From Streptomyces umbrinus (lineage in GTDB: Bacteria; Actinomycetota; Actinomycetes; Streptomycetales; Streptomycetaceae), in contig NZ_JAUSZI010000002.1 of the NCBI RefSeq assembly GCF_030817415.1, forward strand, positions 10,701,501-10,765,500: a stretch of 64,000 nt of DNA, in the 5' to 3' direction. Each line of letters opens with the position of its first letter. Within the stretch, counting starts at the first letter, position 1. Below are positions 5,479-21,411 of the stretch, piece after piece. The position numbers and the translations under genes are program-made. The notes beneath the pieces were generated by a model. That model was not told where the DNA came from and did no database searches. It saw only the letters and a program-made list of their open reading frames with translations.

Positions 5479-7160
5479 AGGTCGCCGAGGCCGTCGGACG
5501 GGCGCTGTACGCGGCCGGGGTCGGTCAGGTCTTCGGCGTGGTCGGCTCGGGCAACTTCCATCTCACCAATGCCATGGTCGCGGCGGGCTCGCGGTTCGTG
5601 GCCGCACGTCATGAGGGCGGCGCGGCGACCATGGCCGACGCGTACGCCCGGATGAGCGGGACGGTGGCCGCGCTCAGCGTTCATCAGGGACCCGGCCTGA
5701 CGAACGCCATGACCGGTATCGCCGAGGCGGCCAAGAGCCGTACGCCGCTGCTCGTGCTGGCGGCCGAGGTGACCGAGCCGCGGTCCAACTTCTACGTCGA
5801 CCAGGAGGCGTTGGCTCGATCGGTGGGCGCGGTCTCGGCGCGGGTCACGTCGGCGGAGGACGCGGTCACACAGGCCCTCGACGCTGTTCGCCGAGCCGCG
5901 TGCGAGCGGCGGACCGTTCTGCTCAACCTCCCGTTGGGCGTACAGGCCCTCGACGTACCCGACGACGTGTCGACCCTCGCCGTCGCGCCGCCCGAACGGG
6001 CGCCTGTGGAGCCGGAGTTCGCCGAAGTGGAGGCGCTGGCGCGGGTGCTGGAGAAGTCCCGGCGACCGGTCTTCGTGGCCGGCCGGGGAGCGCGTTCGCC
6101 CGGTGCCCGGGACGCTTTGGCGGCGCTCGCCGAACGCCATGGCGCGCTGCTGGCGACGTCGGCCGTGGCCCGCGGCCTGTTCCACGGCGATTCGTGGTCA
6201 CTCGACGTGTCCGGAGGCTTCGCTTCGCCCCTGGCGGCCGAACTGATCCAGGAGGCCGACCTGATCGTCGGCTGGGGTTGTGCGCTGAACATGTGGACCA
6301 TGCGGCACGGCCGGCTGATCGGCCCGGACACCACGGTCGTACAGGTCGACGACGACGCGTCGGCCCTCGGCGTGCACCGGGAGGTGCACCTCGGAGTCAC
6401 CGGCGACGTGGAACTCACGGCCCGGCGCGCGCTGGAGACGGACGACGCGAACCGGCAGGCCCAGCAAGGTCCACAGGCTCAGAGAGACCAACAGTCCCGG
6501 CAGGGCTTTCGGACCGCCGACATCGGCGCGGCCATCGCCGCACGCGTGCGCTGGCGGGATGTGCCGTACGAGGACACGAGCACCCGCGAGCGCATCGACC
6601 CGCGCACACTGAGCATCGCGCTCGACGACATCCTCCCCGCGGAGCGGGTGATCGGCGTGGACTCCGGCAACTTCATGGGCTACCCGAGCATGTACCTGTC
6701 GGTGCCGGACGAGAACGGCCTGTGCTTCACCCAGGCGTTCCAGTCGATCGGCCTGGGCCTTGCGACCGCGATCGGCGCGGCACTGGCACGGTCGGACCGG
6801 CTCCCCGTGGCCGCGCTCGGGGACGGCGGCGCGATGATGGGCGCCGCGGAACTCGACACCGTACGCAGGCTCGGACTGCCCATGGTGGTCGTCGTCTACA
6901 ACGACGACGCCTACGGGGCGGAGGTCCACCACTTCGGGCCGGACGGGCATCCGCTGGACACCGTCGAGTTCCCGCCGACGGACATCGCCGCCGTGGCGCG
7001 GGGCTACGGCTTCGACGCGGTCACCGTACGTACGCGGGTGGATCTGAAGGCCGTCGAGGACTGGCTCGCCGGGCCACGCTCCGCGCCCCTGCTCATCGAC
7101 GCCAAGGTGGTCGCGGACCGAGGCGCCTGGTGGCTGGAGGAGGCGTTCCGCGGACACTGA
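5475..7160 (+). CDS. Thiamine diphosphate-dependent enzyme (acetolactate synthase/decarboxylase family)
   Basis: A 561-residue ThDP enzyme with the usual three domains. The N-terminal pyrimidine-binding domain has GVVGSGNFHLTNAM and the catalytic glutamate context AARHEGGAATMADAYAR. The middle domain spans about residues 190-330. The C-terminal pyrophosphate domain carries the metal motif GDGGAMMG through to YNDDAYG. Start is the GTG overlapping the cyclase stop. The family covers acetolactate synthase, benzoylformate decarboxylase and related 2-oxo acid enzymes; no specific motif lets me choose. A Gln/Arg-rich insertion lies near residues 330-345. The pair with a cyclase-family hydrolase is the main clue to function. 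Confidence 0.85.
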   Translation: MKVAEAVGRALYAAGVGQVFGVVGSGNFHLTNAMVAAGSRFVAARHEGGAATMADAYARMSGTVAALSVHQGPGLTNAMTGIAEAAKSRTPLLVLAAEVTEPRSNFYVDQEALARSVGAVSARVTSAEDAVTQALDAVRRAACERRTVLLNLPLGVQALDVPDDVSTLAVAPPERAPVEPEFAEVEALARVLEKSRRPVFVAGRGARSPGARDALAALAERHGALLATSAVARGLFHGDSWSLDVSGGFASPLAAELIQEADLIVGWGCALNMWTMRHGRLIGPDTTVVQVDDDASALGVHREVHLGVTGDVELTARRALETDDANRQAQQGPQAQRDQQSRQGFRTADIGAAIAARVRWRDVPYEDTSTRERIDPRTLSIALDDILPAERVIGVDSGNFMGYPSMYLSVPDENGLCFTQAFQSIGLGLATAIGAALARSDRLPVAALGDGGAMMGAAELDTVRRLGLPMVVVVYNDDAYGAEVHHFGPDGHPLDTVEFPPTDIAAVARGYGFDAVTVRTRVDLKAVEDWLAGPRSAPLLIDAKVVADRGAWWLEEAFRGH

Positions 7161-7264
7161 ACGACGGCCGGTTGTCGGCCGGGGGTGCAGCCGACACATA
7201 TGGGTATCGGCGTGACCGGGCAGCGGCGTTGCTCCTCGCGGGCCGCCCGGCCACGCCGAACCGC

Positions 7265-9571
7265 CTACGGCAGTCCCCAGGGCTGTCCCGGCTCGCTCGG
7301 GGTGACCGGGGCGATGACGAGGTCGGGTCGCCTGCCCGCGTACAACAACACCTCGCGTCCCTTGGGCAGTTCGACGGCGAGGACGCCGTCGTCCGCAGTG
7401 TGGGTACGGGCCGGGGTGCCGTCGTCCAGGACCGCGGTCACCCGCCCGCCGGTCAGACCGTGCCGGAGGCGCAGCGGTTCGCCCGCCAGACTTCGTACGC
7501 GTACGAAGCGGGTGACGCCGCCGCTGCGGACCGCGCTGACCAGGAAGGCTCCCTGGGTGCGGAAGTCGTGCAGGGTGACATCGGCCCAGGAGTCGGGCAC
7601 GGCGGGAAAGATCCGTACGACGCCGTCCCAGCTCTGGCAGAGCATGTCGTGCAGGGACTGCGACGCCGACAGTGGTGTCTCGATGACCGGCCCGGCCTCG
7701 GTGTAGTGGGTGTTGGCCCGGCACGGGTAGCGGGTTGTGGTGTCGAAGAACTTCTTCAGGTACGAGAGAGCCGTGTCGCCGCGGCCCATCATGGCGTACA
7801 GCGACGCGGCGCCCGTATAGCTGTAGCCGCGGTGGGAGCCGGTCAGCGCGTGCCAGTGGACGACCGACTTCTCGATCAGCTCGCGCTGCTCCGGCTGTTC
7901 CCAGTTCACGAGATACAGCGGATAGACCATCAGCAGATGCGAGTAGTGGCGGTGTGACTGCGCGTACGGCGTGTCCGCGCCGATCATGAAGCCGTTGCCG
8001 TCCACCGGATACGGCGTCAGCCTGGCCAGCACCTCCTGCCAGCGCGGCACGAGCGGGTCGTCGACACCCAGGCGCTCGGACGCCTCCAGCAGCGTGCCGC
8101 AGCCCCAACGGATCAGCGCCAGATCGTAGTTGGTGTCCTTCGGCGGGACCACCGGATACTCCGGGGACAGCGTCGACGGCAGATGCAGCTTGCCGTCGTC
8201 GCCCGGCTGGAGGAAGTGCAGGTAGTAGTTGATCGCGCGGCGCAGCAGCGGGTACACCGTGTCGCGCAGCAGATCCTCGTCCATGCTGTGGCGGTAGCTC
8301 AGCCATACGTTGTGCAGGGCCCAGGTCAGATTGCCCGCCTCGCCCCCGCTGCCAGGCACGGGGACACCGCGGTTGGCGAACATGTCGGAACTGCGGCCCA
8401 CTCCGGCACTGTCCGCCCGGTACGCGGCGGGCACGTTCGCGATCAGCTGTTCCTGGTTCTGCCTCAGCGTGCTTGCGAGCGAGTCGAGTTCCAGGTGGTT
8501 GGAGCCGTGGATGAGCCAGTACTCCAGCTGGATGTTGAGGTTCCACCACACGGCGGGCCAGGGGGTGGGTTCGAGCCAGGGCCCACAGGTGGCCATCGGG
8601 GGGCCGCCCTCGCGGCTGGCCGACGCGATCTTGTAGAGCTGGATCCAGTGGAAGCTCTGCAGCCGTTCGTCGGGGATCGAGACGAAGCTCCGGCGGTAGA
8701 ACGCGTGCCACCAGCGGGTGTGCTGACTGCGGAGCGCTCCGTAAGCAGCCGCACGCTGGATCTTCCTGAGCGAGGCCTCCCCGGCCCGGGTGTCCGAGGG
8801 GTGGCTGTGGGCCACGTTGAGCAGCAGGGTGTCGCCGGTGCGGCGGTAGGCGGTCGCGGTCTGGCCGCCGCCGACGAGCGGCTGGAGCACCTGCTCGACG
8901 TCACCGGTGGTGCGGGTGGTCCAGGGCGGGTTGGCGACGTAACCCGTCGGCGGTGCCTCGCTGATCTTCCGGGGGCTGACGGCCTCCTCGGGGTGGAACG
9001 TCCAGCGCACCTCCTCGTCGCCGTCGGCCGTGACGCGTGCGGCGAGGATTCCGTCGTGGATGAGGGCGGAGAGCGTCAGGGTGCCCTTGTCGGTGGTGAT
9101 GGTGCCGGTGAGTTCGGCGTTCCACAGGCTCAGGCGCCAGTCGACCGTGCCGATGGTGCCGACCGGATCGAGGGTCAGATGCCCGACGGGCAGTCGGCAG
9201 GTGCCCCAGCCGCTGCCGAACTCGGGCCGGTGGTCCTGCACTTCGCCGTGCTGGACGGTGAATCGGACGCTGTTCGCACCCGGCTCCTTGTAGACCATGC
9301 TGCCCAGCCGGCCGTCACCGAGGAACGGCCCCTCGTGCCACAGCGTGGGCATCCTGTGCCACACCAGGTCCTGCTTGCGCAGGAAGTCGGTCCACGCGCC
9401 GTCCGAGCCCATGCGGTTGCGGAGCTTCCAACGGCCGCCGGTGGACCAGGCTGTGAGGTCCGCGCCCATTGCGTCCGGGACTTGGGCGGGCGCCGCCTCG
9501 GCGACTCCTGGCAGCGCGGCGGCAGCCGTGCCGCCCAGCACCGAACCGAGCACAACTCTTCTAGAGGTCAT
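7265..9571 (-). CDS. Secreted GH95-like glycoside hydrolase (alpha-L-fucosidase family)
   Basis: A 768-residue enzyme with a Tat-type signal (MTSRRVVLGSVLGG, cleavage about residue 27). The N-terminal beta-domain carries GPFLGDGRLGSMVY, close to the GNGRLGAMV signature of GH95 fucosidases. An (alpha/alpha)-barrel follows (WWNLNIQLEYWL; HYSHLLMVYPLYLVN), then a C-terminal beta-domain with LHDMLCQSWDGVVRIFPAVP, also typical of GH95. Start 9571 is preceded by GGAGG; the longer frame would add 32 residues before the signal. It lies 28 bases downstream of the lyase-like gene on the same strand, so both probably degrade one polysaccharide outside the cell. Substrate linkage cannot be read from sequence. 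Confidence 0.8.
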   Translation of the reverse strand: MTSRRVVLGSVLGGTAAAALPGVAEAAPAQVPDAMGADLTAWSTGGRWKLRNRMGSDGAWTDFLRKQDLVWHRMPTLWHEGPFLGDGRLGSMVYKEPGANSVRFTVQHGEVQDHRPEFGSGWGTCRLPVGHLTLDPVGTIGTVDWRLSLWNAELTGTITTDKGTLTLSALIHDGILAARVTADGDEEVRWTFHPEEAVSPRKISEAPPTGYVANPPWTTRTTGDVEQVLQPLVGGGQTATAYRRTGDTLLLNVAHSHPSDTRAGEASLRKIQRAAAYGALRSQHTRWWHAFYRRSFVSIPDERLQSFHWIQLYKIASASREGGPPMATCGPWLEPTPWPAVWWNLNIQLEYWLIHGSNHLELDSLASTLRQNQEQLIANVPAAYRADSAGVGRSSDMFANRGVPVPGSGGEAGNLTWALHNVWLSYRHSMDEDLLRDTVYPLLRRAINYYLHFLQPGDDGKLHLPSTLSPEYPVVPPKDTNYDLALIRWGCGTLLEASERLGVDDPLVPRWQEVLARLTPYPVDGNGFMIGADTPYAQSHRHYSHLLMVYPLYLVNWEQPEQRELIEKSVVHWHALTGSHRGYSYTGAASLYAMMGRGDTALSYLKKFFDTTTRYPCRANTHYTEAGPVIETPLSASQSLHDMLCQSWDGVVRIFPAVPDSWADVTLHDFRTQGAFLVSAVRSGGVTRFVRVRSLAGEPLRLRHGLTGGRVTAVLDDGTPARTHTADDGVLAVELPKGREVLLYAGRRPDLVIAPVTPSEPGQPWGLP

Positions 9572-10422: not shown

Positions 10423-11694
10423 TCAGTTGTCGGTCTTGGGACCGGGGCTGAGGCGGCGCAGTGTGTGGATCAGCAGCGGGGGCAGCAGCGCGCACTGAAC
10501 CGCGACTGCGGCCCAGAAGAGACCGGGGTAGCCCGAGCGCTCGGCCAGTCCGTAGCCCTCGCCTCCCGCGATGCCGCTGGCGAACGCACCGATTCCGGCG
10601 GCCAGCCGCTGGTGGCCGAAGACGACGGCGGGGGCGCGGGGAGACCGGGCCAGGGCTTCGAGGTCGTTCTTGAGGAAGAGGACGATCTCGCCGAGGCAGA
10701 TGAGCAGGGCTCCGGCCAGCAGGGCGGCGGGATGGCCGAAAGCGAGCGTGGCCATGCCGACGGCCATCGCGGCGAAGCCGAGTCGCAGGGCACGGGCGTA
10801 CGGCATGCGGGCTATCCGGCCCGACAGGAGTGGCTGGGCCACCACCAGGAGCACGGCGTAGAGGGCGAGGACCAGACCGTAGAACTCCGTCGAGGTCCGG
10901 GGCACGGCGTACACCGCGAGGTAGTGCTGGAAGAACATGAAGACGTACACGCTCAGGACGGTGACCGCGAAGGGCAGGACCGGCAGTCCGGCGAATGGCT
11001 TCTGTTGGTGGCGGGGCGGGTGTTGGGGGTCGATGCCTTCCTTTTCCGGGTGGTGGTCCGGGGCTTCGACGGGCAGCAGTGCATGGCCCACGGTGATGGC
11101 CGCGAACAGTACGGCGACCGAGGTGAAGAGCCCTGTGGAGGCGCTGAGTACGAAGGGGGCGGCGGCGAGCGGACCCAGTGCGATACCGGCGTTGAGGGCG
11201 GAGCCGCTCGCGGACAGCAGCAGCGGGCGCTGCTCGTCCGCGACGCGGTGCACCAAATACGCCTTGTTGGCCGGCAGATAGAGCGCGGCGCCGCAGGAGA
11301 CGAGGAACAGCGCGGTGACGGCCGCGGCGGGATGGGCGAGCCCCGGCACGAATCCGGCGAAGCCCGCCGTACGGATCACCAGGGCGAGCAGCATGGTGCG
11401 TTGCAGCCCGATGCGCTCGGCGACCACCGCGCCCACGACACCGCCGGCGAACTGTACGAACGAGGCGATGGCGAGCACCACGCCGACGGCGCCGAGGCCC
11501 ATCCCCAACTGCTGGTGCAGCAGTACCGACATGAAGGGCAGTACCGCGAAGCTGCCCAGCGGGATGAGGAACGATCCGGCCAGCAGGAAGTACTGCGGAC
11601 CGCTGAGGCCGGTCAGCCCTTTGAGGCCTTTCAGCCCGGTGAGCCGTGCCGGGCGGGACCGCAGTCGGCCGGGCGGCTCGGTCGGCGGTGTCAC
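10423..11694 (-). CDS. MFS transporter, last gene of the PLP/ATP-grasp operon
   Basis: A 423-residue twelve-helix major facilitator of the drug/metabolite exporter type; the central loop (about residues 215-240) is histidine-rich (DHHPEKEG, PPRHQQ). Its GTG start overlaps the ATP-grasp stop by four bases. The N-terminal tail carries a small tandem repeat, LTGLKGLKGLTGLSG, from a 12-base DNA repeat at about 11610-11645. Its place after the ligase and the PLP enzyme suggests export of their product. An alternative is re-import or general efflux. The histidine-rich loop would suit a metal-chelate substrate but is only suggestive. Confidence 0.8.
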   Translation of the reverse strand: MTPPTEPPGRLRSRPARLTGLKGLKGLTGLSGPQYFLLAGSFLIPLGSFAVLPFMSVLLHQQLGMGLGAVGVVLAIASFVQFAGGVVGAVVAERIGLQRTMLLALVIRTAGFAGFVPGLAHPAAAVTALFLVSCGAALYLPANKAYLVHRVADEQRPLLLSASGSALNAGIALGPLAAAPFVLSASTGLFTSVAVLFAAITVGHALLPVEAPDHHPEKEGIDPQHPPRHQQKPFAGLPVLPFAVTVLSVYVFMFFQHYLAVYAVPRTSTEFYGLVLALYAVLLVVAQPLLSGRIARMPYARALRLGFAAMAVGMATLAFGHPAALLAGALLICLGEIVLFLKNDLEALARSPRAPAVVFGHQRLAAGIGAFASGIAGGEGYGLAERSGYPGLFWAAVAVQCALLPPLLIHTLRRLSPGPKTDN

Positions 11695-12968
11695 CCCTCC
11701 CCGTCGGCCGCGACGACCGCTCGTACGCTCCCGGCCGCGCTGAGCGCCCGGTGCAGGGCCAGTTCGGCCGTCGCGGCCTCGGCCAGCACGATCCCCGTGC
11801 AGCCTCGCTGGTCAGCCAGGTGTTCCACACGCCGGCCCGGGACGGCCGTCGGATACCACTCGGGCGAGCCGGGGAAGGCGGACAGGGTGTCGAGGCCGGT
11901 CCAGCCGGTGAGCGTGCCGCGCCGGTCCGGGTGGACGAGCACGAAGCCGGTGGCGGGACCGGAGGCGGAATCGACCGGGCTGTCCAGCAGTGCGGGGCGG
12001 CGGCCGAGAGCCGTGTCGACCACGGCCTCGTAGACATTGGTGCCCAGGGCCCGGCACAGCGCCTCGCCGACGAGCGCACCGCCGATACGGCGGTTGATCT
12101 CCACCAGTTCCGGTCCCTCGGCGGTGAGGACGAACTCCACGTGCGCGAAGCCGGAGTCATGGCCGGCGGTCACCAGCACTCGCCCCACCCAGTCCTGGAG
12201 CAGGCCGAGTTCGGGATCCGGGAAGGCCACGGGGAACGCCGCGGCCTCCTCCCGGACGGACGGCTCGGGGGACATCTGGCGGCTGAGGACGCCCAGCAGC
12301 CTTGTCTCGCCCTCCCAACTCAGGGTTTCCGCGCTGTAGACGGGGCCGGAGAAGAAGGGCTCCGCGAACAGCCGCCCGGCGAAGGCGCGTTGGGCTGCCT
12401 CGGCGAGGGCGGCGTGCAGCTGCTCTTCGTCGCGTACCGGCCAGACGTTGCGGGAGGAGGTGCCCGCCGAGTCCTTCAGGACCGCGGGCAGGCCGATCTC
12501 GCGGAGGATCTCGGCGGCCGCGAAGGCCACGGAGGCACGGGTGGGATCGGCGGGATCGGCGGGATCGATGGGGACGGTCAAGGCGCGGCCACGGCTCAGA
12601 CCGCGCTCGTGCAGGAGAGTACGCACCCGGCTCTTGTCGCGCAGCAGCCGGACCGCGGCCGGGTCCGGCCCGGGGAGGCCGAGTCTGGCGGCCAGATCGG
12701 CGCCCGGAACGCTCCAGGTGTCGGTCGAGTTGACGAGCCCCCGAAGGTCGGGCACTGCGGCCAGCGCGGCCGCGCAGGCGGACTCGTCGAACGTGTCGAC
12801 GTCGACGAGGTCGAGCACCGCGAGCGCTTCGGGCGTGAGGTGGGCGAGTTCGTGGCGGTAGACGGCCCGGTCCCCGGTGAGCAGGCACAGCCGGTGCCCG
12901 GCGCCGCCGGCCGCTTCCGCCAGGCGGCCCAGTCCGAAGGTGAGTGCTTCCAGGGCGGCGATGGTCAC
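11691..12968 (-). CDS. ATP-grasp ligase (carboxylate-amine ligase)
   Basis: A 425-residue enzyme of the ATP-grasp superfamily, which forms amide bonds through an acyl-phosphate. The nucleotide-binding segment is seen as LPAVLKDSAGTSSRNVWPV (about residue 165) and the metal-binding end of the fold as FVLTAEGPELVEINRRIGG (about residue 285). The C-terminal 110 residues have the layout seen in L-amino acid ligases. It starts with GTG in a GTGA overlap with the PLP gene and ends in another with the MFS gene. A 9-base repeat (GGGATCGGC, about three copies near 12540-12570) encodes DPADPADPT. Likely role: condensing an amino acid made by the PLP enzyme with a second acid or amino acid. Confidence 0.8.
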   Translation of the reverse strand: MTIAALEALTFGLGRLAEAAGGAGHRLCLLTGDRAVYRHELAHLTPEALAVLDLVDVDTFDESACAAALAAVPDLRGLVNSTDTWSVPGADLAARLGLPGPDPAAVRLLRDKSRVRTLLHERGLSRGRALTVPIDPADPADPTRASVAFAAAEILREIGLPAVLKDSAGTSSRNVWPVRDEEQLHAALAEAAQRAFAGRLFAEPFFSGPVYSAETLSWEGETRLLGVLSRQMSPEPSVREEAAAFPVAFPDPELGLLQDWVGRVLVTAGHDSGFAHVEFVLTAEGPELVEINRRIGGALVGEALCRALGTNVYEAVVDTALGRRPALLDSPVDSASGPATGFVLVHPDRRGTLTGWTGLDTLSAFPGSPEWYPTAVPGRRVEHLADQRGCTGIVLAEAATAELALHRALSAAGSVRAVVAADGEG

Positions 12969-14143
12969 GATGCCCGGTCCTCCTTGTTCGTTGAGGCGGC
13001 CGATATGTCAGCCGAAACGTCGGTCGATACGTCGGTCGGTGTGGCGGTCGGCGCGGCGAGAGGTGCCGGCACCTGTGCGGGCACGGCGGTCCGGCGTACG
13101 TCGTAGCGCCGCCGTTCCCATGCCATCACCGACCAGGGCGGGGCGAGATCGGCGAGCCCCGTGATCTGGTGGGGCTTGAGGACGCTCGGGTCGAGGGCCT
13201 CCTGGTGGCGGGCGAAGACGCGCTCGGTGTAGCGGTGTCCCGTGTCGGCGCCGATCACCACATGCACCCGCTCGGGGTGCCGCGCGGCCTCCCAGCCGGC
13301 GACGAGGTGGGCGGCGCCGGTGGACAGGCCGGCGAACACGGCGTGTTCCCGCAGCAGGCCGACGGCACCGGCCATGGCGTGGCGGAAGTCGAGCCAGTGG
13401 AGCGTGTCGTAGAGGTCGTGGCGGACGTTGTCGAACTGGATCGAGCTGCCGATGCCCGCGATGATCGCCTCGGGGTCGCTGAACCCCTCGCTGCCGAAGG
13501 TGACGCTCCCGAAGGGCTGCACCCCCAACAGCCGTACGCCCCGGCCGCGTTCGCGCAGCGGATCCACCAGACCGCCGGTGGACGACCCCGTGCCCACGGC
13601 GCCCACGACGGTCAGCGGGGTGTCGGGAAGCGCACGGTCGACCAGGTCGGCGAACTCGCGGTAGCCCGTGTAGTGGACGGCGTCGTGGTACTGCCGCATC
13701 CAGTGCAGACCGGGCCGCTCGGCCAGCAACTGCCGCACCCGGCGCACCCGCCGTTCCTGGTCGAGTCTCAGATTCTGTGAGGGCGGCATCTGGTCCACGG
13801 TCGCCCCGAGGATCTCCAACTGGGCGCGCATCGCGGCGTCGACGGTGGTGGAGGCGACGATGTGACAGTTCAGCCCGTACCGGTGACACGCCATCGCCAG
13901 GGCCAGCGCGTAGATGCCGCTGGAACTGTCGACCAGGGTCTGGCCCGGCTGGACGGTCCCGCGCTCCAGCAGCGTACGGACCGCGCCCAGTGCGGCGTAG
14001 ACCTTCAGGGTCTCGAAGCGGGCGAGCACCACGTTGTCGGACAGCCGCAGCAGGTCGGGGGCCTTCATCGCGTCGGTGATGTGCTCGTGGACCGGGGGAG
14101 CAGGTGACGGTGCGGGTGCGGTACGCGTCGGAGTCACCGTCAC
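12965..14143 (-). CDS. Divergent PLP-dependent enzyme, cysteine synthase fold
   Basis: A 392-residue fold type II PLP enzyme (cysteine synthase/diaminopropionate synthase superfamily). The presumed Schiff-base lysine is K47 in RFETLKVYAAL. The usual Asn-Pro-Thr-Gly-Ser before Lys-Asp-Arg is not present, and the substrate loop reads SSSGIYALALA instead of TSGNTGIALA. The phosphate-binding loop is conserved as GTGSSTGGL. The C-terminal 45 residues are Ala/Thr/Ser-rich and low in complexity. GTG start 14143 gives a GTGA overlap with the binding-protein gene; a longer upstream frame is antisense-like noise. By analogy with SbnA or DcsD it may make a beta-substituted alanine from O-phospho- or O-acetylserine for the ATP-grasp ligase. 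Confidence 0.75.
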   Translation of the reverse strand: MTVTPTRTAPAPSPAPPVHEHITDAMKAPDLLRLSDNVVLARFETLKVYAALGAVRTLLERGTVQPGQTLVDSSSGIYALALAMACHRYGLNCHIVASTTVDAAMRAQLEILGATVDQMPPSQNLRLDQERRVRRVRQLLAERPGLHWMRQYHDAVHYTGYREFADLVDRALPDTPLTVVGAVGTGSSTGGLVDPLRERGRGVRLLGVQPFGSVTFGSEGFSDPEAIIAGIGSSIQFDNVRHDLYDTLHWLDFRHAMAGAVGLLREHAVFAGLSTGAAHLVAGWEAARHPERVHVVIGADTGHRYTERVFARHQEALDPSVLKPHQITGLADLAPPWSVMAWERRRYDVRRTAVPAQVPAPLAAPTATPTDVSTDVSADISAASTNKEDRAS

Positions 14144-15147
14144 CGCCCGACCGAGCGCAGGTAACGGCCCAGGTCCTCGGCGCCCTTGACGTTGCGGGGA
14201 CCGCTGACGGCGTCGCCGTACGACATCACGAAGAAGCGGTTGTCCTTCACCGCCGGTACCGACTTCAGGCTCTTGAGCGACTTGAGGTAGGCGATCTTGT
14301 CCTTGGCGGGCTGGTCGGCGTAGTCGACGATCACGATCACTTCGGGTTTCGCCTCGATCACCGGTTCCCAACCGACCGTCGTCCAGCCCTTGTCGAGCCC
14401 GTCGAAGACGTTGGTCGCTCCGGCGGCGGTGATGATGTCGTTCGGTGCGGCATGGCGGCCGGCGGTGAACGGCTGGTCGGTGCCCGAGTCGTAGACGAAG
14501 ACCTTGGCCGGGTCGCCCTTCTCGGGCCAGGTCTTCTTCAGCGCGGCGGCGCGGTCCTTGAGGTCGGTGACGAGCTCGGCGGCCCGCTTCTCGACGTCGA
14601 AGATCCGGCCCAGGTTCTCCAGGTCGGTGTAGAGCGCGTCCAGCGGTGTCACGTCGACGCTCTTGTCGCCGTAGTCCCAGCAGGTCTCGGTGTGCAGATA
14701 ACTGTCGACGCCGACCTTCTCCAACAGGGCCGGTGTGATGCCCCGTTCCTCACTGAAGCCGGAGTTCCAGCCCGCCAGCACCCAGTCGGCCTTGGCGTCG
14801 ACGACGATCTCCCGGGTGATCCGCTCGGTGCCCAGCCGCTCGACCCCGGTGTAGTCCTCGCGCCAGGGCGAACCCTTGATGGCAGGGTCGCCGAGCTTGT
14901 TCATGACGTAGCCGCGCATCCGGTCGGCCAGCCCGAGGGAGAACATCTTCTCGGCGCCGCTGACGTCGTAGGCCACCGCGCGCTTCGGGCGGGTGTACGT
15001 GACGTCCTCGCCGCAGTTGGAGACGGTGACGGTGTCGTCCTTCTTGTTCTTCGCCGCGGACTCGACCTCGGCGCCGCAGCCGGTGGTCAGGAGCCCGGCC
15101 GCGAGCAGTACGGCGGCCAGGGTCCGGGGCAGCGGTGGTCGCATCAT
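14140..15147 (-). CDS. FecB/BtuF-type ABC transporter substrate-binding lipoprotein
   Basis: A 335-residue class III (cluster A-II) binding protein for chelated metals or corrinoid-like ligands. The signal peptide ends in a lipobox (LLTTGCGAE, Cys about residue 23). Typical features are the KRAVAYDVSGAEKMFSLGL strand-helix after the lipobox and a single long central helix (about residues 165-190). CWDYGDKSVDVTPLDALY is an internal segment often seen in siderophore-type binding proteins. ATG 15147 overlaps the ATPase stop (ATGA). It captures the ligand imported by the next two products. Ligand identity is unknown; nothing in the sequence separates a ferric siderophore from other chelates. Confidence 0.85.
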   Translation of the reverse strand: MMRPPLPRTLAAVLLAAGLLTTGCGAEVESAAKNKKDDTVTVSNCGEDVTYTRPKRAVAYDVSGAEKMFSLGLADRMRGYVMNKLGDPAIKGSPWREDYTGVERLGTERITREIVVDAKADWVLAGWNSGFSEERGITPALLEKVGVDSYLHTETCWDYGDKSVDVTPLDALYTDLENLGRIFDVEKRAAELVTDLKDRAAALKKTWPEKGDPAKVFVYDSGTDQPFTAGRHAAPNDIITAAGATNVFDGLDKGWTTVGWEPVIEAKPEVIVIVDYADQPAKDKIAYLKSLKSLKSVPAVKDNRFFVMSYGDAVSGPRNVKGAEDLGRYLRSVGR

Positions 15148-15959
15148 GAGTGCCGTCCTTCTGGTGGGGCGTCGGGGAGTGCGGAAGGTGCCGTGGCGGT
15201 CAGGTCGTAGATCAGGTGGGGTGCCCCGGTGCGCGGATGGTGGACGACCGTGACGTCGACGCCGAACACCTTGCGGACCAGCTCGGGGGTCAGGACTTCC
15301 GCGGGGCTGCCGGTGGCGACCAGGGAGCCGGAGCTCAGTACGGCGATCCGGTCGCAGGCGGCGGCCGCCAGGTTGAGGTCGTGCAGGGCCGTGAGCACGG
15401 TCAGTCCGGAGCCGCGCAGGAAGGACAGCAGCTCCACCTGGTGCCGTACGTCGAGGTGGTTGGTGGGCTCGTCCAGGACCAGGACACGCGGTTCCTGGAC
15501 CAGAGCGCGTGCGACGAGCACGCGTTGGCGTTCCCCGCCGGAGAGAGTGAGCACACTGCGGTCCGCGAGGTGGGTGACGTCCAGCCGTTCCATCGACTGC
15601 CGGCACAGGGCGCGCTCGCGGGCGGTGAGAGGGTGATTGCCCCGTGCGTGCGGAGCGCGGCCCAGGGCCACCACCTCCTCGACGGTGAAGTCGAGTTCGG
15701 TCTGGCTCTCCTGGGTCAGTGCGGCGATCGACCGGGCGCTGTCCCGCGGTTTCAGTGACGTCAGGTCGGTGCCGTCGAGCAGGACGGCCCCGGACGTCGG
15801 CCTCAACGCCCGGTAGACACAGCGCAGGGCGGTCGACTTGCCGCTGCCGTTCGGACCGACGAGTCCGACGATCCGGCCGGCCTGCACGTCGATGTTCAGC
15901 CGGTCCACCAGGGCACGCCCGGCCGCCTCGACCGACAGGTCACGCAGGGAGAGGACCAT
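15144..15959 (-). CDS. FecE/BtuD-type ABC transporter ATPase
   Basis: A 271-residue ATP-binding subunit. Walker A is GPNGSGKST (about residue 36), the Q-loop is ALTQESQTELDF, the signature is LSGGERQRV, Walker B is VLVLDEPTNHLD, and the H-loop is LTALHDLN. It is typical of ferric-siderophore and cobalamin importers. It starts one base after the permease stop and its own stop overlaps the binding-protein ATG, so permease, ATPase and binding protein form one translational unit. Confidence 0.9.
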   Translation of the reverse strand: MVLSLRDLSVEAAGRALVDRLNIDVQAGRIVGLVGPNGSGKSTALRCVYRALRPTSGAVLLDGTDLTSLKPRDSARSIAALTQESQTELDFTVEEVVALGRAPHARGNHPLTARERALCRQSMERLDVTHLADRSVLTLSGGERQRVLVARALVQEPRVLVLDEPTNHLDVRHQVELLSFLRGSGLTVLTALHDLNLAAAACDRIAVLSSGSLVATGSPAEVLTPELVRKVFGVDVTVVHHPRTGAPHLIYDLTATAPSALPDAPPEGRHS

Positions 15960-17105
15960 CTACCGGCCTCCGAACAGATAGCCGCGGCGGCGCATCAGCG
16001 TGATGAACACCGGCACCCCGATCAGCGCGGTGATCACCCCGAGCGGCAGTTCCTCGGGCGCGAAGGCGGTACGGGCCACCAGGTCGACCCAGACCATGAA
16101 GCAGGCCCCGGCGAGCGGCGTGACCGCGAGCACCCTGCGGTGCGTGGAGCCGACGAGGATCCGCACCACGTGGGGCAGGACGAGACCGACGAAGGCGATC
16201 GCGCCGCTGACCGCGACGATCAGCCCGGTGACGGCAGCGGTGAGCAGGAACAGCCCGCGCCGCAGCGCGTCCGCGTCCACGCCCAGGCTGGCCGCGGTCT
16301 CGTCGCCCAGCGCCAGCACGTCCAGCGACCGGCTCTGCCGCAGCAGCACCACGATCGCCACCAGGACCGCCGCCGTCACCAGCGGCAACGACTCCCAGGA
16401 CGCCGCCCCGAGACTGCCCAGCAGCCAGAACAGCACCGTCCGTGCGGCCTGGCCGTTCGGCGAGAGGAAGACCAGGACGCTCATCAGCGCCTGGAAGCCG
16501 TACGCCAGCGCCACTCCGGTCAGCACCAGCCGCAGTGGTGTCAGCCCCAGCGGGCCGAGCGCGGCCAGATGCACCAGCAGCGTGGCGCCGAGCGCGCCGA
16601 GGAAGGCCGCGGCCGACAGCGCGTGGACCCCGAGGCTCGCGAAGACCCCGAACACCACCACGGCGGTCGCCCCGACGGACGCGCCGGACGAGATGCCCAG
16701 CACGAACGGGTCCGCGAGGGCGTTGCGCACCAGCGCCTGGATGGCGACTCCGACGACGGCCAGCCCGGCTCCCACGACCGAGGCGAGCAGCACCCGCGGG
16801 GTGCGCACATGCCAGACGATGGAGTACCCGGTGACCTCGTCGGCCCCGATGCCGCCGCCGGTGAGGGCAGCCCACAGGAAGTGCACGACATCGGCCGGCG
16901 GCACGACGGTCGGCCCCAGGGCGATACCGGCCAGGACGGAGACCACCAGCGTCACGGAGAGCACCACCAGCGCGGTCAGCAGTCTGCCGCGACCCGCACC
17001 GCGACCGTCCGGCTCCTGACGCGGCTCCTCGTGAGGCGTCTCGTCCCGCGAGGGTGCGGTGGTTCCGGGCTCGGCGGAGGGTGTCCCGGATACGGCTTCG
17101 GCCAT
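15960..17105 (-). CDS. FecCD-family ABC transporter permease
   Basis: A 381-residue permease of the FecCD/BtuC family with about ten membrane helices. Recognisable blocks are RTPRVLLASVVGAGLAVVG, NPLADPF-like RNALADPFVLGISSGAS, and GAIAFVGLVLPHVVRIL. The first 50 residues are a polar, disordered cytoplasmic tail. ATG 17105 is chosen because AAAGGGA lies just upstream; an in-frame GTG at 17165 has none. The gap to the methyltransferase stop is 81 bases, the only sizeable gap in the seven-gene run, so a second start point for transcription there is possible. Confidence 0.9.
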   Translation of the reverse strand: MAEAVSGTPSAEPGTTAPSRDETPHEEPRQEPDGRGAGRGRLLTALVVLSVTLVVSVLAGIALGPTVVPPADVVHFLWAALTGGGIGADEVTGYSIVWHVRTPRVLLASVVGAGLAVVGVAIQALVRNALADPFVLGISSGASVGATAVVVFGVFASLGVHALSAAAFLGALGATLLVHLAALGPLGLTPLRLVLTGVALAYGFQALMSVLVFLSPNGQAARTVLFWLLGSLGAASWESLPLVTAAVLVAIVVLLRQSRSLDVLALGDETAASLGVDADALRRGLFLLTAAVTGLIVAVSGAIAFVGLVLPHVVRILVGSTHRRVLAVTPLAGACFMVWVDLVARTAFAPEELPLGVITALIGVPVFITLMRRRGYLFGGR

Positions 17106-17186
17106 GAAGTCCCTTTGTCCGTACGGCAGTTCGGGCGCGGGCAGCCCCAAACGCCGCCCGCTCACCAGTAGTCGGCCGCGACCGCC

Positions 17187-17954
17187 TCAGAGTTCCCGCG
17201 TATCGGCGGAGAGTTCAGGCCGGGTCCCGCGCACGATCAGCCGCTTCGCGTGGTTGTCGTACGGACCGCCGCCGAAGTCGCCGTAACAGCACACGTCGGT
17301 GAAGCCGGCCGCCTCGAACATCGCGCGCAACTCGGCCGCGCTGTAGAGGAAGGAGGTGATCGACGCCTCCCGTGCGATCCCGTCGCGCACGAGCGTCCAG
17401 TCGGTGCGCAGCCGCGTCCAGTGGTCCAGCACGGTGTCGCGCTGCACCACGTACGCGCCGCCGTCGAGCTCGACGACCTGGGGTCGGCCGATCCAGCCCG
17501 CGAGGACCTCCTTGCCCATCACGTCGACGAGCAACTGGCCACCCGGCACGAGCGAGTCGTACGCGTTGCGCAGCACCCGCTCGTTGTCGTCCGGGGCGTC
17601 GAAGTAGCCGAACGAGGTGAAGACGTTGAGCACCACGTCGTACGACCGGGGCTCGACATGCGTCAGCATGTCCGCCCGTACCAGCCGGACTTCGGCCCCG
17701 GCCTCCTCGCACACGGCACCGGCCCGCTCCAGCATGACCGGACTGAGATCCACCCCTGTCACCGCGTATCCACGACGGGTCAGAGGCACCAGATACACAC
17801 CTGGCCCGCAGCACAGGTCCAGTACCCGGCTCCCGGGCGGGAACTCCAGCAGCGGCGACTTGGCGACGACGGACTCCGTCTCCGTACGCCTGCGCCCGGA
17901 GAACATGGTCTCGGAGAAGTCCGACCAGAATCCGTCGTCCTCGTACCAGTGCAT
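17187..17954 (-). CDS. Class I SAM-dependent methyltransferase, first gene of the PLP/ATP-grasp operon
   Basis: A 255-residue Rossmann methyltransferase. Motif I is RVLDLCCGPGVYLVPL (about residue 50), the acidic end of strand 2 is VTGVDLSPVML, and motif IV is YDVVLNVFTSFGYFD. Start ATG 17954 has GAGG upstream; the longer GTG frame adds 13 residues. It leads the leftward operon ending at 10423 and probably methylates the metabolite or a precursor. The C-terminal domain (FLYSAAELRAMFEAAGF) is the common small-molecule O/N-methyltransferase layout. Nothing indicates an RNA or protein target. Confidence 0.8.
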   Translation of the reverse strand: MHWYEDDGFWSDFSETMFSGRRRTETESVVAKSPLLEFPPGSRVLDLCCGPGVYLVPLTRRGYAVTGVDLSPVMLERAGAVCEEAGAEVRLVRADMLTHVEPRSYDVVLNVFTSFGYFDAPDDNERVLRNAYDSLVPGGQLLVDVMGKEVLAGWIGRPQVVELDGGAYVVQRDTVLDHWTRLRTDWTLVRDGIAREASITSFLYSAAELRAMFEAAGFTDVCCYGDFGGGPYDNHAKRLIVRGTRPELSADTREL

Positions 17955-18167: not shown

Positions 18168-19661
18168 TCAGGCCTCCGCGCGGCCGCGCATCACCAGCTT
18201 CTTGAGGAGCGGCCAGGCCAGCAGCAGCACGATCACCGCGTACACGGTCACCGAGAAAGGCGTGTTGACCAGTCCTGAGACGCTGCCGTCGCTGATCTGC
18301 AGGGCACGCCGGAGCTGCTGTTCGGCGTTCGGGCCGAGGATGACGCCGATGACGGCCGGCAGCACCGGAAGCCCGTAGCGCCGCATACCGAAGCCGATCA
18401 GGCCGATGATCAGCAGGATCACCAGGTCGATGACCTCGCCGCCGACCGCGTACGCGCCGACCGCCGCGAAGAACATGATCCCCGCGTAGAGGTACGGCCG
18501 CGGGATGCGCAGCAGCTTCGCCCACACCGGCGCCAGAGGCAGGTTGAGCGCGAGCAGCAGCACCATGCCGACGAAGAGGGAGGCGATCAGGCCCCACACC
18601 AGGTCGGGTTCGCGCTCGAAGAGGAGCGGTCCGGGCTGAATGCCGTACTGCTGGAAGGCGGCCAGCATGACCGCCGCGACCGCCGTGGTCGGCAGTCCCA
18701 GGGTCAGCATGGACACCAGCGTGCCCGCCGCCGAGGCGGACGCCGCCGACTCCGGTCCCGCCACACCCTCGATCGCGCCCTTGCCCCAGTCGTCCTTGTG
18801 CTTCGACAGGCGCTTCTCCGTGACGTACGACAGGAAGGTGGGGATCTCGGCGCCGCCTGCCGGGATCGCGCCGAACGGGAACCCGATGACCGGTCCGCGC
18901 AGCCACGACTTCCAGGTCCGCCGCACATCGGCCTTGCCCAGCCAGGGCCGGCCCACCGGGATCGGCTCGCCCGGGCTGCGCCGCAGATGCGCCGCCACCC
19001 ACAGGGCCTCGCCGATCGCGAAGAGACCGACCGCCACGATCACCACGTCGATGCCGTCGGCGAGTTGGAGCGAGCCGAAGGTCAGCCGCTGCTGCCCGGT
19101 CATCTGGTCGAGGCCGACCAGCCCGATCGTCAGCCCGATCAGCAGGGACGCGAGACCCCGGATACGGGACGAGCCCAGCACGGACGTCACGGCGATGAAC
19201 GCGAGCACCATGATGGCGAAGTAGTCCGGCGCACCGATGTCCACCGCCAGTTCGGCCACCGTCGGCGCGAGCATCACCAGCAGGATCGTGCCGATCAGGC
19301 CGCCCGCGAAGTGGCCGATGGCGGCGGCCGCGAGCGCCTGCGCGCCGCGCCCCGACTTGGCCATCGGGTTGCCCTCCATGGCCGCGACCACGGCCGCGCT
19401 CTCGCCCGGCGTGTTCAGCAGGATCGAGGTGGTCGAGCCGCCGAACATCGCGCCGTAGTAGATCCCGGCGAACATGATGAACGCGCCGATCGGATTCAGG
19501 CCGTATGTCACCGGCAGCAGCAGGGCGACCGCCATCGCGGGGCCGATACCGGGCAGCACACCGATCGCCGTGCCGAGCAGCACGCCGATGGCGGCCCACA
19601 GCAGGTTGATCGGGGTGAGCGCCGTACCGAACCCGTCCATCAGGGAGTTGAGGGCGTCCAT
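18168..19661 (-). CDS. tctA: Tripartite tricarboxylate transporter large permease TctA
   Basis: A 497-residue membrane protein with about eleven helices. It has the TctA hallmark [20 protein letters not shown] near residue 36 and a second conserved block [16 protein letters not shown] (about residue 265), plus [20 protein letters not shown]. It forms the transport pore of a proton- or sodium-driven carboxylate uptake system with TctB and the periplasmic-type binding protein TctC. It lies one base after the tctB stop and is last in the operon. The substrate (citrate, tartrate, other di/tricarboxylate) is set by TctC and is not readable here. Confidence 0.92.
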
Positions 19662-19662
19662 G

Positions 19663-20205
19663 TCACAGCACTCCCATCAGCGGGCCGCCGGGCAGCGGTA
19701 CTCCGAGCAGGTTGTTGAAGATCACGTACGTGACGAGGGAGAGCACGGCCGCGATGAGCGGGTCCCGATCGAAGCGGCGGCTGCCGAGCGCGAAGGCCGC
19801 TCCCCAGAAGAGGAGCGCACCCGCGACGGGGAAACCGGCGGGCTCGATGAGGACGGCCGCGCCCAGGAACACCCCGGCGAGCAGCAACACCGTGCGCCAG
19901 TCGGCCGGTTCGGACAGATCGATGTCCTCACCGCCCTCGGCCTCGCCACGGCCGCCGCGCAGTACGTCGACGGCGAGCAGGGCGGCGATGACGAGCAGCC
20001 CGATGCCGACCACGATCGGCACGGTCTTCGGCCCGACGGGACCGCGCTGGGTTATCTCGACGTCCATGGTGAGCGCGTCGCCCAGGACGAGTGCGCCGAG
20101 GGCCAACAGCAGGACGCAGACACCCAGTTCGGAGTGGTCGCGCAGCCACGAGCGCCGTTCGTCCGCGGGTGGCGTCGGGGAGGCTTCGGTGGTCGGCGTC
20201 GTCAC
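19663..20205 (-). CDS. tctB: Tripartite tricarboxylate transporter small subunit TctB
   Basis: A 180-residue membrane protein with four helices and a polar N-terminus; it fits TctB in length and in position between tctC and tctA. It has the usual [17 protein letters not shown] entry to helix 2 and a final helix pair ending at [14 protein letters not shown], a stretch found at the end of many TctB proteins. GTG start overlaps the tctC stop (GTGA). TctB sits beside TctA in the membrane; its exact role is not settled for the family. Confidence 0.88.
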
Positions 20206-21188
20206 AGTCCCAGCTCCTTCAGTACCGAAACCACGCGCTTGTCCTGGGCGTCGAGGAAGTCACCGAACTTCTCGCCGGTGAGGAAGGCGTCGTCCCAGCC
20301 GTTCTGCTGCATCGACTTCTGCCACTCGGGGGAGTCGTGCAGCTCCTCGACGAGGCGTACGAGCTTGTCGCGCTCGGCGTCGGACAGGCCGGGCGGGGCC
20401 ACGATGCCCCGCCAGTTGGTGAAGTCCACGTCGTAGCCGGACTCCTTGAGCGTGGGTGCCTCGGACAGTTCGTCGACCCGCTCCGGGCCGGTGACCGCGA
20501 GAATCCGGAGCTCGCCCGCCTTGATCTGGTCGAGGTACTCGCCGACACCCGACACCCCGAAGGCGACCTTGTTGCCGAGGATCGAGGCGAGCAGCTCGCC
20601 ACCGCCGTCGAAGGGCACGTAGTTGACGTCCTTCGGGGCGATACCGGCGGCCTTCGCCATCAGCATGGGCGCGAGGTGGTCGGGCCCGCCGGGCGAGGAA
20701 CCGCCGCCCACCGGAAGCTTGCCGGGGTTCTTCTTCCAGGCCTCGACGAGCTGGTCGATCGTCTTGTACGGGGAGTCCTTGCCGACCACCACGACGTCCT
20801 GCTCCTCGGTGAGCCGGGCGATCGGGGTGGTGTCGGCGAGAGTCTTGGGCGCGTCGTTGGAGCGGACCGCGCCCACCACACCGAGGCCCATCGACATGGC
20901 GAGCTTGCCGTTGCCGTGCTCGCTCACCAGCCGGCTCAGTCCGACGGTGCCGCCGGCGCCGGGAAGGTTGAACACCTCGATGTTGTGCGTGAGTTCGGCG
21001 TCCTCGGCGTTCTTCGCGGCCGTACGGGCCGTGATGTCATAGCCGCCGCCGGGCGTGTTGGGGACCATGAAGCGCAGGCCCGGGATCTGCGTGCCCGTCG
21101 CGGAATCGCTGCCCGCCGTGAGCAACGGAGGGCCCACGAGCACGAGCACGGCGGCCCCGAACAGGGCGAGGAGGGTGCGCAGGCGCAC
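20202..21188 (-). CDS. tctC: Tripartite tricarboxylate transporter binding protein TctC
   Basis: A 328-residue Bug/TctC-type extracytoplasmic binding protein. The signal sequence is VRLRTLLALFGAAVLVLVG with no clear lipobox. The family segments are RFMVPNTPGGGYDITART, GAGGTVGLSRL, and VNYVPFDGGGELLASILG. GTG 21188 is chosen because it places the signal peptide first. The in-frame start at 21344 would translate the repeated regulatory DNA at 21193-21278. It is the first gene of tctCBA and is divergent from the two-component genes that probably control it. Confidence 0.88.
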   Translation of the reverse strand: MRLRTLLALFGAAVLVLVGPPLLTAGSDSATGTQIPGLRFMVPNTPGGGYDITARTAAKNAEDAELTHNIEVFNLPGAGGTVGLSRLVSEHGNGKLAMSMGLGVVGAVRSNDAPKTLADTTPIARLTEEQDVVVVGKDSPYKTIDQLVEAWKKNPGKLPVGGGSSPGGPDHLAPMLMAKAAGIAPKDVNYVPFDGGGELLASILGNKVAFGVSGVGEYLDQIKAGELRILAVTGPERVDELSEAPTLKESGYDVDFTNWRGIVAPPGLSDAERDKLVRLVEELHDSPEWQKSMQQNGWDDAFLTGEKFGDFLDAQDKRVVSVLKELGL

Positions 21189-21192
21189 GAAT

Positions 21193-21278
21193 GCCACCAC
21201 CTGTCGGTACGTCGATGAGGTCGGGGGAAGCCCTGTGGGGAGGGTGACGTGGGCCACATGTTGCCTGTACGTCGAACG
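21193..21278. promoter_or_regulatory. Imperfect direct repeats in the tctC / sensor kinase intergenic region
   Basis: Two related 26-base segments start 60 bases apart (21193 and 21253). Each begins GCCAC and ends in TGT-x-x-TACGTCGA or TGTACGTCGA. Sixty bases is close to six helical turns, so a dimeric response regulator could bind both on one face. They lie just upstream of the tctC start and are candidate sites for the neighbouring CitB-type regulator. Confidence 0.45.
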
Positions 21279-21411
21279 TCTGTCTCTCTTCCGGAACCAA
21301 CGGAGGTTGTGGTCTTTGTGGCCACCGGCGTGGGTCACGTGCACGGATCGTAGGGTGCCTCGCCTGTCCCGGCTCCCTGCTCACCCCTTTTCCCGGCCAC
21401 GGGAGGGGTCC

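Follow-up and report, generated by a model that had tools for sequence, protein, structure and literature searches.

A seven-gene operon of Streptomyces umbrinus that may encode a copper-scavenging system without a nonribosomal peptide synthetase

A compact operon of seven leftward genes lies at positions 10,423 to 17,954 of a 64,000-nucleotide window of Streptomyces umbrinus DNA (NCBI RefSeq assembly GCF_030817415.1, contig NZ_JAUSZI010000002.1, positions 10,701,501 to 10,765,500 of the forward strand). The assembly measures 12.4 Mb in three contigs. All seven genes are on the minus strand. The first encodes a class I S-adenosylmethionine methyltransferase (17187–17954; Methyltransf_25, 68.3 bits), and a homologue is present in 74 of 80 related loci. 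A FecBCD-type ATP-binding cassette (ABC) importer follows, made of a FecCD-type permease (15960–17105; FecCD, 283 bits), an ATPase (15144–15959; ABC_tran, 116.9 bits) and a binding lipoprotein (14140–15147; Peripla_BP_2, 65.8 bits). Next come a pyridoxal 5'-phosphate (PLP) enzyme distantly related to SbnA and CysK (12965–14143; PALP, 105.8 bits against a cut-off of 35), an ATP-grasp ligase with an L-amino-acid-ligase C-terminal domain (11691–12968; LAL_C2, 53.8 bits; ATP-grasp_4, 32.4 bits) and a major facilitator superfamily (MFS) protein that is probably an exporter (10423–11694; MFS_1, 85.1 bits). The genes are tightly packed, with an ATGA overlap at 15147, GTGA overlaps at 14143, 12968 and 11694, and an abutment at 15959/15960. 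This layout and these gene classes, first read from the letters alone in what we call the original prediction, were confirmed by coordinates and by Pfam. Its statement that nonribosomal peptide synthetase (NRPS), IucA/C synthetase, nicotianamine synthase and opine dehydrogenase are missing also agrees with Pfam, which finds none of them in the seven genes. All seven genes recur in the same order in Streptomyces sp. NBRC 110611 (locus L021; L and G numbers denote loci and genomes), with proteins 78–86% identical. Other genomes show the same complete arrangement, so it is not due to chance.

Two copies of a promoter-like block, GGGAAC-N17-CGAC, are found on the minus strand of the operon. P1 (18071–18045) lies 5' of the methyltransferase gene. 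P2 (17197–17171) spans the methyltransferase stop codon and precedes the permease gene, and second copies lie likewise ahead of the permease in L022, L024, L026, L033 and L092. Since P2 sits between these two genes, the operon may be carried on two transcripts. The permease reading frame is open from a GTG at 17165; P2 ends at 17171 and so reaches this start, which makes the ATG at 17105 the likelier one. Of 73 loci, that of the window among them, 68 have the block at spacing 17 within 350 bp 5' of the methyltransferase gene, where dinucleotide shuffles predict 0.18. The other spacings tried, from 10 to 24, were each found in at most three loci, spacing 14 excepted. Alignment of 179 distinct sites gave the consensus CGGGAAC(T/C)-N15-(C/A)CGAC(T/C)A-C-T. 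In this alignment the search itself imposed GGGAAC and CGAC, and the flanking columns were free; the preceding C is present in 83% and the later T in 74% of the sites. The loci of Saccharothrix type (L074, L081 and L096) have nine, six and nine copies, ahead of several transcription units.

To describe the conservation of the operon, the GTDB genome collection was scanned with the PLP protein by a pattern-based method. This yielded 395 stretches that encode relatives, and the 80 best were taken further. In a separate database comparison, the best match of the PLP protein is 94% identical and is named S. umbrinus. At an E value of 1e-15, these 80 loci have the PLP enzyme in 80 cases, the ATP-grasp ligase in 78 and the methyltransferase in 74, followed by the MFS protein (45), the importer ATPase (36), the permease (33) and the binding protein (27). 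Fifty-eight loci are flanked by a full 10 kb; scored at 1e-8, the methyltransferase was found in 56 of them, the ATP-grasp ligase in 57, any FecCD permease in 29, an extracytoplasmic function (ECF) sigma factor gene in 34 and a ferric-reductase-like gene in 23 (this assignment, PF01794, was tested on one member). Many loci are closely related, so the counts are not independent. The conserved core is the methyltransferase, the PLP enzyme and the ATP-grasp ligase. Co-conservation of all seven genes, as the original prediction would have it, was not borne out, and the importer was rejected as an obligate member of the cluster. The PLP and ATP-grasp genes thus do occur without a nearby importer in half of the fully flanked relatives, which comes part of the way to an outcome that the original prediction had counted against itself; yet 22 of these 29 loci carry the ferric-reductase-like membrane gene. 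Where the arrangement is of the window type, the importer genes are placed between the methyltransferase and PLP genes. The Saccharothrix-type loci have a different FecCD importer (approximately 33% identity), accompanied by a binding protein of its own, an MFS protein, a cytochrome P450 and a second methyltransferase. Among 61 genomes around that of the window, a PLP relative was found in 29 at 1e-30, and it is at least 70% identical in six.

The block is also found ahead of genes outside the cluster. In the genome of the window, three sites are credible, namely P1, P2 and one ahead of a PepSY_TM gene that adjoins the ECF gene; a relaxed pattern matched 10 sites and its reversed control 5. 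The strict pattern gave 34 sites against 5 reversed in 12 cluster-bearing genomes, and 57 against 10 in 28 further ones. When the spacing was changed by +3 in the same 28 genomes, 8 sites were found (14 reversed), and none of these 8 loci matched any regulon query. Sites were assigned to the inside or outside of the cluster from contig coordinates. In the 28-genome set, look-alike sites in G075, G080, G082, G086 and G088 were set aside on sequence likeness, and the G098 site was left out. The 10 outside regions read from the 12-genome set comprise DJ-1/PfpI genes (2), CopC (1), a PepSY_TM-like gene (1), a P450 with a PvcA-type isonitrile synthase (1), an ECF/opine region (1), a site beside a CopA-type ATPase that points away from it (1) and coding chance (3). 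Sites in a putative homogentisate dioxygenase gene (L166, L167) were dismissed as coding chance. The 20 regions read from the 28-genome set comprise DJ-1 genes (4, one divergent), a second methyltransferase with an MFS and a ferric-reductase-like gene (3), PepSY_TM (2), and one each of CopC, CtaG with CopA, FecBCD, a ferric-reductase-like gene, and an isonitrile P450-PvcA pair with CopA. The remainder point away beside CopA (2) or beside the ECF partner gene (1), or are unclear or due to chance (3). The DJ-1/PfpI proteins directly under the block look exported (L161:4375-5052, L165:3044-3724, L186 and L190). Since isocyanide hydratases belong to the DJ-1/PfpI superfamily, these proteins might act on isonitrile ligands.

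The likely reader of the block, judged from gene neighbourhoods and homology, is a SigC-like ECF sigma factor. In many relatives its gene stands beside the cluster. In the genome of the window it lies in trans, at 1.63 Mb (G000 C2:1633962-1634507), and its product is 72% identical to the ECF protein of L021. A paralogue of 60% identity is encoded near an HMA/E1-E2 metal ATPase, and the next ECF protein reaches only 33%. The best solved match of the trans-encoded protein is SigC of Mycobacterium tuberculosis (2o7g, 4.5e-31), with the best non-SigC structure at 6.6e-15. All three ECF proteins of this kind that were compared match SigC best among solved structures (4.5e-31, 8.3e-34 and 2.1e-29), with the best non-SigC matches between 1e-15 and 7e-15. 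One study reports that SigC of M. tuberculosis prevents copper starvation and induces ctpB and the nrp operon (PMC7924339). Two others respectively assign SigC to ECF36 (PMC8999054) and describe the SigC regulon of Corynebacterium glutamicum as activated under copper deprivation (PMC7337898). In many loci, the ECF gene adjoins a gene for a membrane protein with no Pfam match (L021:5437-6207, L022:5124-5891, L092:11019-11627 and L246:3058-3765). Several copies have a loop rich in methionine and histidine, and this protein is a candidate copper-sensing partner. Its reading frame seems to be interrupted in the genome of the window (L119, about 6930-7584). Near the ECF gene of the Saccharothrix-type loci, a zf-HC2 (anti-sigma-like) protein with a histidine-rich tail was seen (L074:12512-13228).

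The original prediction proposed that the operon makes, methylates, exports and re-imports a small metallophore without an NRPS, and it left the metal open. The general scheme is supported, mainly by the promoter regulon; the notion of the seven genes as one conserved unit is not. The genes that accompany the block point to copper, which we regard as most likely the metal of the ligand. We therefore favour, as reasonably probable on this genomic evidence, a chalkophore system: products of the operon would build a small methylated copper ligand from amino acids, with neither NRPS nor isonitrile enzymes, release it and take it up again. Under copper shortage, the SigC-like factor would bind at P1 and P2 and induce the genes. 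The PLP enzyme would convert an activated serine to a β-substituted alanine, for example 2,3-diaminopropionate, as its family suggests. The ATP-grasp ligase would couple this to another amino acid; methylation, of the product or of a precursor, would fall to the methyltransferase. The MFS protein would then export the ligand, and the FecBCD importer would take up the metal complex.

The PLP enzyme has the two features of fold type II, a PALP domain and a conserved lysine. This residue, K47, is invariant in an alignment of 26 sequences, aligns with a lysine of CmnB and presumably binds PLP. Many cysteine-synthase and cystathionine-synthase structures resemble the structure model (mean predicted local distance difference test score of 71), and O-ureidoserine synthase, CmnB and SbnA are among these matches, a likeness at the level of the fold only. 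The original prediction had likened the enzyme to SbnA; the family is the same and the relationship distant (134.8 bits against an SbnA cut-off of 349.95). A GHMP-kinase-type gene adjoins the PLP gene in L092 and adjoins more distant relatives in L175, L178 and L180. This neighbour suggests that the substrate is a phosphorylated serine-like compound. The best solved match of the ATP-grasp ligase is an L-amino acid ligase (3vot). Our guess for the product is a methylated dipeptide of the diaminopropionate type.

Several observations weigh against this reading. Half of the fully flanked relatives have no local importer. No match to the block was found 5' of the methyltransferase gene in 5 of the 73 loci (L027, L056, L065, L097 and L100), and spacing 14 occurs in 18 loci, which is unexplained. 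In three Amycolatopsis genomes, the sites beside CopA point away from it. A set of genomes without the PLP enzyme (18 of the 32 without a PLP match among the 61) gave a modest excess: the strict pattern matched 26 times, in 16 genomes, and the reversed pattern 14 times. Because the reversed pattern comes this close, the argument from this set is carried by gene content, as judged by us: 19 of the 26 sites are at CopA, PepSY, FecBCD, isonitrile-type P450 or NRPS chalkophore-type genes. These are PepSY_TM (7), FecBCD directly following the ECF gene (4), FecBCD beside an NRPS (2), a further two within one of these NRPS regions, an MFS-like gene after FecBCD (2, identified by eye), an isonitrile-type P450 beside CopA (1) and CopA (1); seven sites were unassigned. 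Finally, the ferric-reductase-like and PepSY_TM genes and the opine operon beside an ECF gene could equally serve iron or other metals.

One competitor is an iron siderophore operon, with a ligand for Fe(III), import by FecBCD, and release of the iron aided by the ferric-reductase-like and PepSY_TM proteins. Siderophores are a frequent cargo of FecBCD importers, and the ferric-reductase-like genes in two-fifths of the fully flanked loci and the PepSY_TM genes under the block fit this. We nevertheless consider it unlikely, since the block precedes CopC, CtaG-CopA and diisonitrile genes, and the best match to a consensus DmdR/IdeR iron box in 28 upstream regions has 9 mismatches of 19, where shuffles reach 7. 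Searches of the same regions 5' of the methyltransferase, with one shuffle each, gave no convincing iron, zinc, nickel, CsoR or Fur box. The Zur-like matches have 5 mismatches of 15 against 5–6 in shuffles, which speaks against zinc within a second proposal, namely that the ligand takes nickel, cobalt, zinc or a broad range of metals and that the sigma factor answers to more than copper. A CDF efflux gene near one cluster (L065) and an opine operon of the staphylopine-dehydrogenase type beside an ECF gene in G072, with a non-strict block upstream, lend something to this proposal. It remains improbable in our estimation, as the copper-specific CopC, CtaG and PCuAC genes accompany the block or the ECF gene elsewhere.

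The core might instead make a peptide or amino acid that is no metallophore, such as an antibiotic or a signal, with the importer serving some other ligand, for instance cobalamin or a precursor of F420. The occurrence of the core without a local importer agrees with this, and so do the top NCBIfam names of the importer, which are the 'putative F420-0' ABC family and BtuC types. All F420-0 models score below their curated cut-offs, however (279 of 437.35, 284.8 of 372.4 and 160.6 of 392.4 bits), and F420-0 import was rejected as the role of the importer on this ground. Importer relatives of roughly 45–55% identity adjoin isonitrile, NRPS and opine genes, and in the window the same block stands ahead of both core and importer. 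We consider this third reading improbable.

A wider proposal, for and against which we see the case as evenly balanced, is that actinobacteria share a SigC-type copper-starvation regulon with interchangeable metallophore modules. These would be the diisonitrile NRPS, the PvcA-P450 isonitrile, the staphylopine-like opine and, in many genomes, the PLP/ATP-grasp/methyltransferase module, an undescribed chalkophore class whose product would be a methylated diaminopropionate-type dipeptide made without an NRPS. The copper scavengers known from bacteria belong to few chemical classes. If the proposal is true, one more is added, encoded in many actinobacteria (the 395 stretches of the scanned collection), and SigC-type control, known from M. 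tuberculosis, extends to interchangeable modules. The block would also offer a way to search sequences for more genes of copper acquisition.

Two further gene groups were noted. A tripartite tricarboxylate transporter, TctA/TctB/TctC, lies immediately 5' of the operon on the same strand (18168–21344); a search of the 80 related loci did not find it, and it is therefore placed outside the system. A second PLP subfamily (55–61% identity), without the methyltransferase and the ATP-grasp ligase, was seen in five wide loci (L175-L179). There it belongs to a putative metallophore operon of a GHMP-kinase-like gene, the PLP enzyme, DUF364 ('putative heavy-metal chelation'), an MFS protein and FecBCD; FecBCD is present in four of the five, and the remaining parts were tested by Pfam in one or two loci. 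No convincing block was found in these loci, where the few block-like matches all lie within coding sequence.

Among the matches listed from the open-licence PubMed Central literature, as titles and abstract openings, the cluster is undescribed. The closest known relatives in regulation are the diisonitrile chalkophores of the ScoA-E type and of the mycobacterial nrp cluster. Locus L246, from the set of genomes without the PLP enzyme, encodes a diisonitrile lipopeptide pathway, with an oxygenase that matches ScoE at 7.7e-177, an FcoT-like thioesterase, an AMP ligase, an NRPS and a binding protein. Immediately 5' of these genes lie CopA, PCuAC and the ECF gene; L245 has the same gene order by reading. 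Copies of the block in L246 lie ahead of the first gene after the ECF gene and ahead of the binding protein gene. The operon in the window therefore has a promoter type in common with an established copper-scavenging class; the diisonitriles of the nrp cluster are described as chalkophores (PMC9600254). The block is shared, as are the FecBCD importer and the SigC-like gene, which are both nearby in L246. In contrast, the diisonitrile pathways depend on an NRPS, on an acyl ligase and on a ScoE-type oxygenase, and Pfam shows none of the three in the seven genes. An operon of the window type and a separate PvcA-P450/FecBCD/CopA locus with the block occur together in Streptomyces sp. NBRC 110611. 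As for the enzymes, SbnA of staphyloferrin B and CmnB of capreomycin belong to the same PLP fold family and are both among the solved matches. SbnA is distant by its model score, and unlike staphyloferrin B, the operon has no SbnB-type or IucA/C-type gene among its seven. D-cycloserine biosynthesis likewise pairs a PLP β-replacement enzyme (DcsD) with an ATP-grasp enzyme (DcsG), and O-ureido-L-serine synthase ranks high among the fold matches (3x43). The operon in the window differs in that its ligase has LAL_C2 and that a methyltransferase and an importer are present. Staphylopine-type opines bind several metals. In G072 (L172:1725-4764), the opine operon and FecBCD adjoin the SigC-like gene, whereas neither an opine dehydrogenase nor a nicotianamine-synthase-like gene is among the Pfam matches of our operon. 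The ethylenediaminedisuccinate zincophore of Amycolatopsis, likened here by description and not by sequence, differs in its zinc control and its enzymes and is, like the proposed product, a small amino-acid chelator made without an NRPS.

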